Shown here: positions 25,986-31,849 of the stretch, one piece after another
Position numbering within the stretch: position 1 is the stretch's first letter
How the letters are laid out: the number at the start of each line of letters is the position of its first letter
Assembly: GCF_000474945.1 (NCBI RefSeq)
Contig: NZ_AXDW01000004.1
Span: 124,001 to 188,000, forward strand
Length of the DNA stretch: 64,000 nucleotides
From: Solimonas soli DSM 21787
Lineage (GTDB): Bacteria > Pseudomonadota > Gammaproteobacteria > Nevskiales > Nevskiaceae
Direction: 5' to 3'
Notes under the pieces: generated by a model
Told to the model about the DNA's origin: nothing
The model's database searches: none
What the model saw: only the letters and a program-made list of their open reading frames with translations
Made by a program: the position numbers and the translations under genes

Positions 25986-27125
25986 ATGCGCGAACTGATC
26001 GACTCCTTGCAGAACCTCGGCCCGGACTGGGCCTGGACCGGCATCGCCGCCTGCTTGAGCCTGCTCGTCGTGCTCGGCGGCATGCACTTCGTGCACAGGC
26101 TGGTGCTGCGTGCGGCCAGCCATTCGACGGTGATGGGCCTGGTCGTGCGTCGCACGCACGCGCCGCTGACGATCGTGGTGGCGATCGCCGCGCTGAATCT
26201 GGTCTGGCAGGCGGCGCCGGACGACATCCCGCTGATCGGTGTCGTGCGCCGCGTATCGGTCGTGCTGTGGATCGCCTCGCTGACCTGGCTCGCGCTGCGC
26301 GGCGTCGCGCTCGGCGGTGACGCGGTCGTCGAGCTCAACCCGTACAACATGGCGGACAATCTGCACGCGCGCATGCTGCTCACACGCACCCGCGTGCTGA
26401 CGCGCACGCTGTACGTGATCATCCTGCTGGTCGGGCTGTCGCTGGCGCTGATGGCGATTCCCGGCGTGCGCCAGATCGGCACCAGCCTGCTCGCGTCGGC
26501 CGGCATCGGCGCTCTGGCGATTGGTCTGGCGGCGCGGCCCGTGCTCGGCAATCTGCTGGCCGGCCTGCAGCTTGCCATCACCCAGCCGATCCGCATCGAC
26601 GATGTGCTGGTGCTGGAAGGCGAGTGGGGACGCGTCGAGGAAATCACCGGCACCTATGTCGTGGTGGCGATCTGGGACCAGCGGCGCCTGGTCGTGCCGC
26701 TGCAGTACTTCATCGAGAAGCCCTTCCAGAACTGGACTCGCCAGACCTCGCAGATTCTCGGCACGGTCATGCTGTGGGTCGACTACCGCCTGCCGGTCGA
26801 CGCGGTCCGCGCCGAACTGAAGCGACTGGTCGAAGGCGACAAGGACTGGGATCGGCGCGTGGCCATCGCGCAGGTCACCGACACCAGCGAACAGACCATG
26901 CAGCTGCGCGTGCTGCTGTCGTCGGCCGATTCCGGGCGCAACTTCGATCTGCGCTGCCGCGTGCGCGAAGCGCTGATCTCCTTCATCGCCCGCGAGTACC
27001 CGCTGTATCTGCCGCATACACGGGCCGAGCTGATGCGCGGCGAAACGCCGCCGGGCGCGCCGCCGCCGGGCCCGCGCAGCGACGCGCCGGCGAGTTCGCC
27101 GACGCCGACCCTGCCGCAGGCCTAG
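25986..27125 (+). CDS. MscS family mechanosensitive ion channel
   Basis: A 379-residue inner-membrane protein. Four or so helices precede the MscS core: the pore-lining helix ASAGIGALAIGLAARPVLGN with its Gly/Ala pattern at residues ~165-190, then the beta domain with ITQPIRIDDVLVLEGEWGRV and VPLQYFIEKPFQNW. It releases solutes on hypo-osmotic shock. The C-terminus is a Pro-rich tail (PPGAPPPGP). The ATG at 25986 is used; a TTG six codons earlier is possible and no strong ribosome site is visible for either. Confidence 0.92.
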   Translation: MRELIDSLQNLGPDWAWTGIAACLSLLVVLGGMHFVHRLVLRAASHSTVMGLVVRRTHAPLTIVVAIAALNLVWQAAPDDIPLIGVVRRVSVVLWIASLTWLALRGVALGGDAVVELNPYNMADNLHARMLLTRTRVLTRTLYVIILLVGLSLALMAIPGVRQIGTSLLASAGIGALAIGLAARPVLGNLLAGLQLAITQPIRIDDVLVLEGEWGRVEEITGTYVVVAIWDQRRLVVPLQYFIEKPFQNWTRQTSQILGTVMLWVDYRLPVDAVRAELKRLVEGDKDWDRRVAIAQVTDTSEQTMQLRVLLSSADSGRNFDLRCRVREALISFIAREYPLYLPHTRAELMRGETPPGAPPPGPRSDAPASSPTPTLPQA

Positions 27126-27130
27126 AAACA

Positions 27131-27159
27131 AAAAGACCACCGCGAAGGTGGTCGTTTTT
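27131..27159. terminator. Bidirectional terminator between mscS and ssrA
   Basis: Stem GACCACC / GGTGGTC with a GCGAA loop, flanked by AAAA on the left and GTTTTT on the right. It begins just after the mscS stop and ends two bases from the mature 3' end of tmRNA, so it serves both converging genes. Confidence 0.9.
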
Positions 27160-27161
27160 GT

Positions 27162-27517
27162 TGGTGGAGCTGGCGGGAATTGAACCCGCGTCCGCCAGAT
27201 CGTAGCCCTCAGATCTACATGCTTAGCCCGATCTTTGGTTTTCGTCGCTGGCTGCCGGACGGGCACGGAACGCCAACGCTTATCCCCTTAGAGATTTAGC
27301 AGATCGGCCAAGGGCGGACGTCACTGCGATCCGATAAGAGTCGACGGTCGCACCAACCGGTATCGGAACCAGAAGGGCAACCGCTCACCGGGATTTAGGC
27401 GGCGAGGGCGTAGTTGGAGTCGTTCGCAACTAGCTTGGTTGTCACAGGTTTTACGAGGACATGACACCTCGGCATGCACTTCGGATTCCGTTACCAGCGT
27501 CGAAACCGGTCAGCCCC
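27162..27517 (-). ncRNA. ssrA: Transfer-messenger RNA (tmRNA)
   Basis: A 356-nt RNA on the minus strand. The 5' end GGGGCTG pairs with CAGCTCC before the encoded 3' ACCA, forming the alanine-tRNA-like acceptor stem; GGGTTCAATTCCCGCC is the T arm. The resume codon and tag are at 27427-27395 and read ANDSNYALAA-stop, a normal tag ending in the degradation signal LAA. tmRNA rescues stalled ribosomes together with SmpB, encoded 350 bases upstream on the same strand. The 5' leader must be removed by RNase P. Confidence 0.97.
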
Positions 27518-27529
27518 GTGTGCGTCCTT

Positions 27530-27538
27530 AGTGTAGCA
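27530..27538 (-). promoter_or_regulatory. Extended -10 promoter of ssrA
   Basis: Minus-strand TGCTACACT (27538-27530), an extended -10 box (TGn + TACACT), 13 bases before the mature 5' end of tmRNA. The best-spaced -35 candidates are weak, which fits an extended -10 promoter. Start of transcription would be a few bases before the mature end. Confidence 0.6.
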
Positions 27539-27606
27539 AGATGATGGCGCGACATGCCGATTCAAGAGCGGCGAGGCTGCACAGGGGCCTGACGGACGCG
27601 AAACCT

Positions 27607-27906
27607 GGCGCCTCAGGCCGCATGGCGCATGACGCGGCCTTTTTCGCGCTGCCAGTATCGACGCGAGCCGCCCGCGCCGCGTAGCAGCGCCGGCGAGACC
27701 GGCGAACGGACTGGCGGGATGGACCCGATCCGGCGCCTCAGGCCGAATGGCGCATGACGCGGCCTTTCTCGCGCTGCCAGTATCGACGCGAGCCGCCCGC
27801 GCCGCGCAGCAGCGCCGGCGAGACGGCGAACGGGACTGGCGGGATGGACCCGAGCCGGCGCCTCAGGCCGAATGGCGCATGACGCGGCCTTTCTCGCGCT
27901 GCCAGT
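27607..27906. repeat. 125-bp tandem repeat, 2.4 copies, derived from the smpB 3' end
   Basis: Copies start at 27607, 27732 and 27857, exactly 125 bases apart. The first two are full length and differ at only a few positions (about 95% identical). The third is 50 bases and is the genuine end of smpB: its last 13 codons plus stop and a few bases beyond. Each copy therefore repeats the smpB C-terminal codons ([11 protein letters not shown]..) and stop on the minus strand. The other ~75 bases of the unit have no counterpart inside smpB. The repeat fills the gap between smpB and the ssrA promoter. Confidence 0.92.
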
Positions 27907-28339
27907 CCCGCTCCTTGATGTCGGCCCGCTTGTCGTGCTCCTTCTTGCCCTTGGCGAGGCCCACCTCGAGCTTGGCGCGGCCTTTTTCCCAGTGCAGATC
28001 GAGCGGAATCAGGGTGTAGCCGGCACGCTCGACCTTGCCGATCAGCGTCGCCAGCTCGCGCTGGTGCAGCAGCAGTTTGCGGGTGCGGGTAGCGTCGGCG
28101 ATCTCGTGGGTGGACGTCTGCTTCAGCGGCGTGAAATGCGCGCCGATGAGCCAGGCTTCGCCGTTCTTCAGCGTCACGTAGGCTTCGGCGATCTGCGCGC
28201 GGCCGGCGCGCAGGCTCTTGACCTCCCAGCCCTTGAGGACGAGGCCGGCCTCGTAGCGCTCTTCGATGAAGTACTCGAAGCGGGCGCGGCGGTTGACGGC
28301 GATCGTGCGCTCCGGCGCGGCCGTTTCTTTTTTGCTCAT
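27863..28339 (-). CDS. smpB: SsrA-binding protein SmpB
   Basis: A 158-residue basic protein that binds tmRNA and places it in stalled ribosomes. [34 protein letters not shown] and [11 protein letters not shown] are family signatures; the last helix enters the mRNA channel. Start ATG at 28339. The 3' end is copied twice downstream in a 125-bp tandem repeat. It is divergent from the sodium symporter gene, with about 40 bases between the start codons. Confidence 0.97.
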
Positions 28340-28380
28340 GCATCAATTATATAGAGCCGCCCACAGGCTAGACTAATCCG

Positions 28381-29766
28381 ATGAACATCCGCGAAAGCAG
28401 CTATGGGTACTGGAGTTCGCACCGCGCCTTCCTGTGGGTGGCGGTCGGCGCCGTGCTCGGCGTCGGCAATGCCGTGCGTCTGCCGGGCCTGATGGCCGAA
28501 TACGGCGGCGTGCTGTTCCTCGCGGTCTATCTGCTCGGCCTCCTGCTGGTCGGCCTGCCGCTGCTGCTCGCCGAATGGATGCTCGGCCGCTGGATGCGCG
28601 ACGACCTCGTTGCCGGCTTCGGGCGGCTCGTGGAAACGGCGAGGGCGAAACGCGCCTGGGTCGTGATCGGCGGCCTCGCGCTGCTGACCGCCGGCCTCAT
28701 TCTCTCGTACTACAGCGTCATCGCCGGCTGGAGTCTGGCCTACGCCTTTCGCGCCGGCAGCGGCCTGTTCGGCCAGCTGACGGCCGACGGCGCCAGCGAG
28801 ATCTTTCTCGATCTCGCGCAGGATCCGGAGCGCAGCCTGTCCTGGCACACGCTGTTCATTCTCGCGGCCTGCATCGTCGTCTCGCACGGCTTTCGCGAAG
28901 GCGTCGAGCGCGCCTCGCGCGGCCTCGTGCCGTTCGTGCTGGTCCTGGTCCTGGCGATGTGCTGGTACGCCTTCAGCCACGGCGATGCCAACGCGGCGCT
29001 GGAACGGGTCTTCGCTCCGCATCCCGAGAAGCTCGGCTGGCGCGGCGTGATGGAGGCGCTGCACCACGCCTTCTTCACGCTCGGGCTCGGCATGGGCGTG
29101 ATGATGGGCGTCGGCAGCTATCTGCCGGTCGACGCGCCGCTGCGCCGCGTGGCGCTGACGCTGATCCTCATCGATACCGTGTTCAGCCTGCTGGTCGGCC
29201 TGTCCGTCCTCGCCATCGTGCTCGGCGCCGGACTGGAGCCGACCTCGGGCATCACCCTGATGTTCCAGACCCTGCCGCGCGCCATCAGCGCCGATCTCGG
29301 CGGCTCGCTGTTCGCCGCCGGCCTGTATCTGATGACCTTCATTGTGACGATGACCTCGGCGACCACCATGCTCGAGCCGCTGAGCCGCTATTTCATGGAC
29401 CGCCAGCGCTGGACGCGCGTGTTCGCGGCGACCTGCGCGGCGCTGCTGATCTGGTTCATCGGCCTCGGCACCCTGCTGTCGTTCAGCGTGCTGCAGGATC
29501 TGCGGCTGCTGGATCGCAACTTCTTCGAGTGGGTGCAGTGGCTGACCTCGAGCTGGTTCGCGCCGCTCGGCGGCCTGTTGATTTGCGTGTTCGTCGTCAG
29601 CATCATGCCGCGCGATCTGGCGCGCACGCTGTGGGGGGAATCACGATCGTGGCTGTATCCGGTCTGGTTCGGCACGCTGCGCTATCCGGCACGCCTCGGT
29701 CTCATCGCCGTCCTCGTCTATTCGACCGGTCTGCTCGACTGGCTGGCATCGCTGTGGGAGAAGTGA
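28381..29766 (+). CDS. Sodium-dependent transporter, NSS (SNF/LeuT) family
   Basis: A 461-residue membrane protein with about 12 helices. The first helix has FLWVAVGAVLGVGNAVRLPG, the NSS unwound helix that binds sodium and substrate, and LLLVGLPLLLAEWMLGR follows as in bacterial LeuT/TnaT relatives. TLGLGMGVMMGVGSYLP is the helix 6 equivalent. It should import an amino acid or related amine with sodium. Substrate unknown. Its stop is one base before the ratA start codon, so the two are co-transcribed, an arrangement I do not know from the standard smpB-ratA order. Confidence 0.9.
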   Translation: MNIRESSYGYWSSHRAFLWVAVGAVLGVGNAVRLPGLMAEYGGVLFLAVYLLGLLLVGLPLLLAEWMLGRWMRDDLVAGFGRLVETARAKRAWVVIGGLALLTAGLILSYYSVIAGWSLAYAFRAGSGLFGQLTADGASEIFLDLAQDPERSLSWHTLFILAACIVVSHGFREGVERASRGLVPFVLVLVLAMCWYAFSHGDANAALERVFAPHPEKLGWRGVMEALHHAFFTLGLGMGVMMGVGSYLPVDAPLRRVALTLILIDTVFSLLVGLSVLAIVLGAGLEPTSGITLMFQTLPRAISADLGGSLFAAGLYLMTFIVTMTSATTMLEPLSRYFMDRQRWTRVFAATCAALLIWFIGLGTLLSFSVLQDLRLLDRNFFEWVQWLTSSWFAPLGGLLICVFVVSIMPRDLARTLWGESRSWLYPVWFGTLRYPARLGLIAVLVYSTGLLDWLASLWEK

Positions 29767-31453: not shown

Positions 31454-31849
31454 ATGCGTGGACTATGGGTGGTTTCCGTGCTGGGCCTGCTGATGGCGCC
31501 GCCGCTGCACGCGCAGGAACAAGGCAAGGGCGAGGGCGTCGGCCAGGAATTGCGTGACGCGGCCCGCGATGTCGGCCATGGCGCCAAGGAGGCGGCCAAG
31601 GACGTCGGTCATGCGACGCGCGATGCCGCCAAGGCGACCGGCCACGCGGCGCGCGACGGCGCCAAGGCGGTCGGCCACGCCAGCCGCAATGTCGCCAGGA
31701 AGGCGGGCCATGCGACGCGCGATGCCGCCAAGGCGACGGGCCACGCCACGCGCGACGCGGCCAAGGCCACCGGCCACGCCGTGCACGAAGGCGCGCAGGA
31801 TGTGAAGCAGGCGGTCAGCGGCGAGCCGGCCGAAGCGAAAAAACCCTAG
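31454..31849 (+). CDS. Secreted LEA-like 11-residue repeat protein
   Basis: A 131-residue protein with a signal peptide (cleavage near LHA-QEQ, residue 20). The mature part is almost entirely an 11-residue repeat of the type AAKATGHATRD, with at least seven contiguous copies (about residues 36-112), mirrored by a 33-base period in the DNA. Such Ala/Lys/Asp repeats form amphipathic helices in group 3 LEA-like and apolipoprotein-like proteins. A His recurs once per repeat (GHA), so it could bind metal, notable right after fur. No family name is certain. Possible roles are membrane or protein protection in the periplasm, or metal buffering. Confidence 0.82.
   Translation: MRGLWVVSVLGLLMAPPLHAQEQGKGEGVGQELRDAARDVGHGAKEAAKDVGHATRDAAKATGHAARDGAKAVGHASRNVARKAGHATRDAAKATGHATRDAAKATGHAVHEGAQDVKQAVSGEPAEAKKP

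Follow-up and report, generated by a model that had tools for sequence, protein, structure and literature searches.

The region between smpB and ssrA of Solimonas soli DSM 21787 raises the question of why the 3′ end of smpB should stand three times in succession in front of ssrA. We propose that the repeated sequence is probably a member of a dispersed family of mobile hairpins, found in Solimonas and its relatives, that copies the ends of genes.

The end of smpB is repeated in tandem in front of ssrA

The window, that is, the whole stretch of 64,000 nucleotides that was analysed, holds in the gap between smpB and ssrA a 125-bp tandem array of 2.4 copies (27607-27906), which was the top tandem repeat of the window (TRF score 556; 183 for the runner-up). 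Both genes lie on the minus strand, so the array is 3′ of the smpB stop and 5′ of the ssrA 5′ end. The unit consists of the last ~50 bp of smpB (A) and 75 bp (B) that contain a hairpin core, and the region reads gene-A-B-A-B-A in the direction of smpB. The parts are as follows.

27863-28339, minus strand: smpB, the host gene of the array (SsrA-binding protein, 158 aa; NCBIfam NF003843, TIGR00086)
27901-27909, minus strand: S, the smpB bases GGGACTGGC at the start of the copied segment, complementary to the left flank of B
27857-27906, minus strand: A, gene-attached, the 13 final smpB codons, stop and 6 nt
27782-27856, minus strand: B1, short spacer, left flank and hairpin core
27832-27840, minus strand: left flank of B1, GCCAGTCCC, the reverse complement of S
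27782-27828, minus strand: hairpin core of B1 (CGCCGTCTCGCC..GGCTCGCGTCGAT)
27732-27781, minus strand: A′, second copy of the smpB end
27657-27731, minus strand: B2, second copy of B
27607-27656, minus strand: A″, third copy of the smpB end, farthest from the gene, with one Ser to Ala change in the next-to-last codon
27162-27517, minus strand: ssrA (tmRNA, tag ANDSNYALAA), outside the element, 5′ end toward the array

The first-pass annotation had described three register-perfect copies, and the starts at 27607, 27732 and 27857, spaced by 125, bear this out. Every copy holds the final 13 smpB codons and the stop, as was claimed; the gene-attached and middle A segments showed no difference over 50 bp, and all three encode the same protein end apart from Ser/Ala at the next-to-last residue. 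The two extra units, said to be about 95% identical, matched at 115 of 125 positions without gaps, at 95% in BLAST and at 0.968 in a gapped alignment. The units are indeed tied to a gene end that remains intact. A search of 27100-28400 against Rfam returned tmRNA as the sole family at the gathering score, and the core was unmatched. Elsewhere in the window, 33-bp tandem repeats in 5-6 copies (31595-31780) lie within an ORF for an Ala/Lys/His-rich repeat protein (KDVGHATRDAAKATGHA-like).

Arrays at smpB vary among relatives and are homogenized within species

Variable copy number among relatives had been suggested as a check, and it was found. The 11 genomes of the GTDB genus (G000 to G010) comprise four with resolved smpB arrays (G000, the window's own; G001, S. 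marina; G006, S. flava; G008, S. terrae), one broken at the array (G010, where one contig stops at the array start and another starts inside B) and six without (G007, S. variicoloris; G002, G003, G004, G005 and G009), with gaps of 45-291 bp. More arrays were present in G028, G063 and G072, with a partial one in G013, and S. fluminis has B at smpB without a clear copy of the gene end. In Stagnimonas aquatica (L079) and a Nevskiaceae MAG of its GTDB genus (L078), units of 141 bp begin at the same smpB codons. Clear downstream copies of the smpB end were found in 5 of the 80 smpB loci compared (L069, L071, L072, L078 and L079), a set in which L094 and L135 have too little sequence to judge; single matches of 18 and 13 bp at L076 and L084 were regarded as chance. 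The smpB-ssrA gap reaches 2323 bp in distant relatives.

The units are homogenized within species. Across seven array genomes (G063 and G072 left out, G001 with a single unit), unit identity was 0.92-1.00 within a genome (eight comparisons, six genomes) and 0.61-0.91 between genomes. The units therefore evolve in concert, with the working smpB end being one of them. In S. terrae (L010), the gene-attached end uses AT-rich synonymous codons (ATT, AGA, CAT) unlike those of the third copy, and the protein is unchanged.

Related cores lie beside other genes

Related cores of about 40-70 bp occurred at several genes. An exact two-part pattern of 22 bases, covering both core ends, matched 7 of 58 family genomes, with one or two matches per genome. 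It is common to the smpB cores of S. flava and three other genomes, the dgt cores and the permease cores. Beyond smpB it matched at dgt in G066 and G068 and, in G075, where an FtsX-type permease gene begins; at each of these the gene's own end is copied in tandem. The element mostly lies directly after stop codons and once before a gene; at the permease it precedes the gene and is antisense to it. A model made from 14 cores matched 30 of the 58 family genomes at E up to 0.05. When 18 of the sites it found were read, a gene-end copy was visible by BLAST in 10 (DMT_6/DUF486 three times, argG, metF, purL, dgt, an FGE-sulfatase protein and rlmN twice, the neighbours being named via family models), was weak at rnfA and was not seen in seven, some of which may be chance matches of the model. 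Later searches added dcd and rlmN within the genus. The number of candidates scored per genome was 87 in the family model search and 14 in the class search, a depth at which absence is weak evidence.

The window's own genome carries the element at smpB, DUF486 (C14), dcd (C5), rlmN (C13) and argG (C7, without a copy). It has further cores at C2, an array of three, and at C8, a single core without a copy between genes that by eye resemble atpG and atpA. Its dcd and rlmN cores are 85% identical, and in each the flank and the copy follow the host gene. The C2 array (L340, G000:C2:189808-190084) consists of three core-like hairpins in a 108-bp unit whose repeat is 100% identical. In another family of the class, two tandem core-like hairpins (L283, G202:C1:1103421-1103595) have genes resembling nuoA and nuoB (by eye) on either side. 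In this pair and in the C2 array, the spacers resemble flanks no better than shuffles do and no gene end is copied. Phage and plasmid collections gave no match to one 70-base permease core. Two pattern matches in viral contigs were put down to chance, one lying inside an ORF and the other overlapping ORFs with no hairpin by eye.

Twenty aligned cores form a short predicted hairpin, in which three of the six pairs are changed on both sides. A model built from these twenty, with the Solimonas smpB cores excluded (R3), gave 9 matches with E no greater than 5 in the window's genome, where 150 of the 8655 candidates were scored. Because the window's own smpB cores scored at background level (20.6 and 18.7 bits; 20.3 for a background match), their kinship with the dcd and rlmN cores rests on intermediate cores that have both ends exactly alike. 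The smpB repeats look like one instance of a small dispersed hairpin beside several housekeeping genes of the family, usually with a spare copy of the neighbour's end.

Filled and empty sites show the extent of the copied segment

Within the genus, filled and empty sites were found at the same genes. At dcd, B is present in 7 of the 11 genomes, six of them with gene-end copies (G000, G001, G003, G004, G006, G007) and one with B only (G008), and nothing was found in the other four (G002, G005, G009, G010). B without a copy was also noted above at argG of G000 and at smpB of S. fluminis. At rlmN, six of the 11 genomes have A-B-A (G000, G001, G002, G006, G007, G008) and the other five do not. In the empty G003, G005 and G009, the rlmN stop overlaps the start codon of the next gene; in the filled G000, G001 and G008, it is the distant copy of the rlmN end whose stop overlaps the start of the following gene, as in the empty G003 and G009. 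These junctions fit insertion plus duplication of the gene end. The overlap could also have been re-formed after a trailing B was lost, ATGA/GTGA being within the copied segment. Behind the second rlmN end of G002 (L320), a partial B is in frame from the overlapping ATG and may supply the N-terminus of the next protein (MIRRLMRALVASSPRGAVV...).

The copied part of the gene was 33-91 nt as aligned (median 56) in the 34 loci with a copy. At the end of the array, 20 of 34 loci showed no B-like sequence and 14 did, at a cut-off of 12 near which smpB of G000 (11.0), metF (11.5) and DUF486 of G000 (12.0) are borderline; this set is made up of loci with a known gene-end motif, copy-less sites (the cores labelled ilvC, atp and mac, for example) being excluded.

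The left flank of the core is often matched to the host gene

Often, the sequence that adjoins the core on the left can base-pair with the host gene at the place where the copied segment begins. In smpB, GGGA/CTGGC (the slash marking the break as written) pairs with the flank GCCAGTCCC; in dgt, GACCGA/TCGC pairs with GCGATCGGTC; in metF, GTGCA/CTTC pairs with GAAGTGCAC; and in rlmN, GGCCTGCGG pairs with CCGCAGGCC. Matched flanks were found at many loci. A flank score of at least 8 was reached with the own gene in 15 of 26 loci, compared with 6 of 544 pairings with other genes, although this set keeps three loci with no usable gene-end copy and an arbitrary target window (smpB_G017, mac_G068, mac_G012). 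For sums at the level of 11 genes, the minimum in 2000 draws was 75 and the maximum in 2000 derangements was 64. The best partner of the flank within 400 nt upstream was the duplication start in 20 of 34 loci, compared with 4% for shuffled flanks. Split by gene, this positional test succeeded at smpB (8/9), dcd (5/6), rlmN (6/8) and dgt (1/3) and at no locus of six other genes, so that in blind form it had at least one successful locus in just 4 of 10 genes.

The flank mirrors synonymous changes of the host gene in certain species, but not in others. In smpB of S. fluminis, GCGATTGGC stands in place of the GGGACTGGC of Solimonas and the flank is GCCAATCGC, which scores 9.0 with its own gene and 6.0 with that of each of nine other species. 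At dcd, the own gene was the best partner in G000, G001 and G004 and tied in G007, but failed in G003, G006 and G008. For rlmN, variation between species is too small for this comparison. Overall, the match was 9.42 with the own species (n = 31) and 8.63 with other species (n = 200).

Search for a partner transposase

The search for a partner enzyme covered Y1_Tnp genes. The window's own genome gave no Y1_Tnp match. When 30 Y1_Tnp loci were examined, two adjoined an array, that of dgt in G066 and G068, on one side only; no RAYT gene with the element on both sides was found among them. In these two loci (L188, L189), a gene for a REP-associated tyrosine transposase lies, by eye, between the dgt array and a gltB-like gene. 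The 3′ side of this transposase gene bears GGGGTCAG/GGGGACAG and not a core of the smpB type, and these sequences fit the TIR motif GGGGWSAS as given in a passage of PMC3733652. At one further Y1_Tnp locus (L214), both half-motifs are present on one strand, which on reading was judged to be chance. A RAYT as the mover of the core is not supported, given the lack of a Y1_Tnp match in G000 and of a core on both sides of a RAYT gene.

Comparison with known repeat systems

Several known systems share features with the element. The MIRUs of mycobacteria, short sequences repeated in tandem where two genes meet, disrupt neither gene and carry short open frames of their own. Our element likewise forms small tandem units at gene junctions with the genes intact, but its unit copies the end of the host gene. 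In integrons, each cassette of a head-to-tail array is closed by a folded, bulged attC hairpin with the R box GTTRRRY/RYYYAAC, on which an integrase acts. Here too a bulged folded hairpin closes head-to-tail units; the units, however, are gene fragments, the closing stem differs from gene to gene, and inspection of the printed cores by eye revealed no GTTRRRY/RYYYAAC boxes. As in MITEs, the element is short and noncoding, with a duplicated target and empty sites, the duplication being 33-91 nt, variable in length and lacking at certain sites. Fixed terminal inverted repeats shared with an autonomous element were not seen when Y1_Tnp genes were searched as partners, and the outer left arm follows the host gene.

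REP, BIME and REPIN sequences are small, dispersed noncoding hairpins, mostly 3′ of coding regions and thought to be non-autonomous (PMC3733652, PMC8266576, PMC3116915). The element resembles these RAYT-associated sequences in being a small dispersed noncoding hairpin that lies mostly just after genes. It differs from what those passages describe in its target-matched left flank, its copying of the neighbour's end, its low copy number (the 9 R3 matches in the own genome, and 1-2 strict pattern matches in each of 7 genomes) and its lack of a conserved GTAG/CGTC head, the right end being GTCGNTAC at several smpB sites and GTCGCCAT, GGCGCA or CGTCTT at dgt, DUF486 and rlmN. The YPAL/RU-2 elements of Yersinia are palindromic and MITE-like, with target duplications of 3-26 bp, variable in length, and filled and empty sites (PMC2229807). 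Internal inverted repeats, a composition that is not A+T-rich, variable-length target duplications and filled/empty sites are common to both; the duplications here are 33-91 bp and reach the gene end, whereas the passages on YPAL mention no target-complementary flank (PMC2229807). In IS200/IS605, the target or cleavage site is chosen by pairing with a short sequence of the element (PMC8266576). Pairing of a short element sequence with the target is thus a shared feature, but the guide described there is a tetranucleotide that belongs to the element, whereas here a flank of 8-11 bases varies with the host gene. In the passages compared, the literature on REP/REPIN/RAYT and YPAL/RU-2 (PMC3733652, PMC8266576, PMC3116915, PMC2229807) describes neither copying of the host gene's end nor a flank that follows the host gene. 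Among the matches listed in the open-access literature, neither gene-end copying by a REP-like element nor an array between smpB and ssrA was described, as far as the excerpts go.

A model for the copying of gene ends and its alternatives

In the preferred reading, a mobile hairpin of the REP/MITE type would arrive first, moved by some enzyme. The stem of S with its reverse complement, rc(S), together with the core hairpin would then form a three-way junction that brings the end of the core beside S, and a template switch during replication at this junction would yield the second copy of the gene end. We hold this route to be a plausible guess, with somewhat less than an even chance. As to timing, the gene end may have been copied by the insertion itself or by later template switching, with the gene intact in either case. 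The gene would stay whole because its last 33-91 bp exist in a second copy. Unequal exchange would then multiply and homogenize the units. Correction of imperfect palindromes (quasi-palindromes) by template switching is a process that would tend to keep rc(S) matching S. The first-pass annotation had offered simple slippage; slippage or unequal exchange can account for the later growth in copy number and the homogenization, but alone it leaves the related cores at other genes unexplained. Several observations tell against the preferred reading, namely the B-like sequence at 14 of 34 array ends, the cores without a copy, the two arrays that copy no gene end, the genes and species in which the flank tests fail, the background-level R3 scores of the window's own cores and the lack of a Y1_Tnp match in its genome. 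The element would presumably have no selected function for the host. If this reading is right, a small selfish hairpin can inhabit the ends of essential genes, which are spared because the end is copied. The loci would also be a natural record of template switching, in which a noncoding flank tracks synonymous changes tens of bases away in coding sequence, and a system of many genes and species for how REP-like hairpins spread and tandem repeats of gene ends arise.

Other explanations are taken in falling order of probability. An unlikely one is a miniature element directed by a guide. Here rc(S) would act as a splint, copied from or re-matched to each new target and bridging the insertion point by base pairing in single-stranded DNA or RNA. 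An essential gene would then come to no harm when the element moves into or out of its end, and a fresh copy of that end would travel along.

Next, and also unlikely, comes a circular cassette of gene end and B, inserted at S by a site-specific or single-strand recombinase that reads the folded B, as the integron integrase does with attC, rc(S) being the part that pairs with the target. The head-to-tail repetition of S″-A-rc(S)-core units, the 20 clean array ends, the full gene end at every filled rlmN site and the folding of B as single-stranded DNA, which closes on S″ in two of four tested sequences, are consistent with it. A fixed core site is lacking, however, since S changes from one gene to the next; no recombinase gene for such a cassette emerged from the enzyme search, which covered Y1_Tnp genes; and the 14 B-like array ends also speak against it.

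An RNA element under selection is improbable. S in the coding mRNA would pair with rc(S) past the stop, and the resulting three-way junction would fix the 3′ end of the mRNA or its termination. In smpB of S. fluminis and in dcd of G000, G001 and G004, S and rc(S) co-vary; this, the hairpin pairs changed on both sides and the position mostly just after stop codons point to such an element. On the other hand, the element is present or absent at dcd, rlmN and smpB inside one genus and stands before the FtsX-type permease gene in antisense. Four cores folded with DNA parameters were barely stabler than shuffles (z -1.2 to -1.5), and no Rfam family corresponds to it, five loci searched with E up to 0.1 yielding a tRNA in L283 and nothing else.

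It is very improbable that no mobile element is involved and that the smpB 3′ end was simply duplicated in place as a VNTR whose units evolve in concert. Such a duplication would explain the head-to-tail, homogenized units of variable number, the B-like sequence after the last copy in 14 of 34 arrays and the weak R3 scores of the Solimonas smpB cores, but it is largely refuted because the element is distributed over multiple genes, with related cores at unrelated genes whose own ends are copied.

That the units are attachment-site scars left by islands at the 3′ end of ssrA, as the first-pass annotation had considered, is hardly credible and for ssrA is refuted by geometry, because its 5′ end, not its 3′ end, borders the array: gene ends are intact, as at att sites, but the copied segment is the end of smpB and not of an RNA gene, and gaps of 45-508 bp in 10 genus genomes are too short for an island. 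The resemblance of the units to the tmRNA T arm (ACTGGCGGGATGGACCC) stood in part. The likeness score is 10.5 in the window and 9.0-9.5 in three further species, while at least 9 is reached by 0.12% of sampled 17-mers of the window, so 4 of 9 element-bearing species are above chance; in the other 5 of 9 it is absent (at most 6.5), and a T-arm relic was rejected. The likeness is taken as a coincidence, because GCCAGT within the T-arm-like stretch is complementary to the smpB codons with which the copied segment begins.
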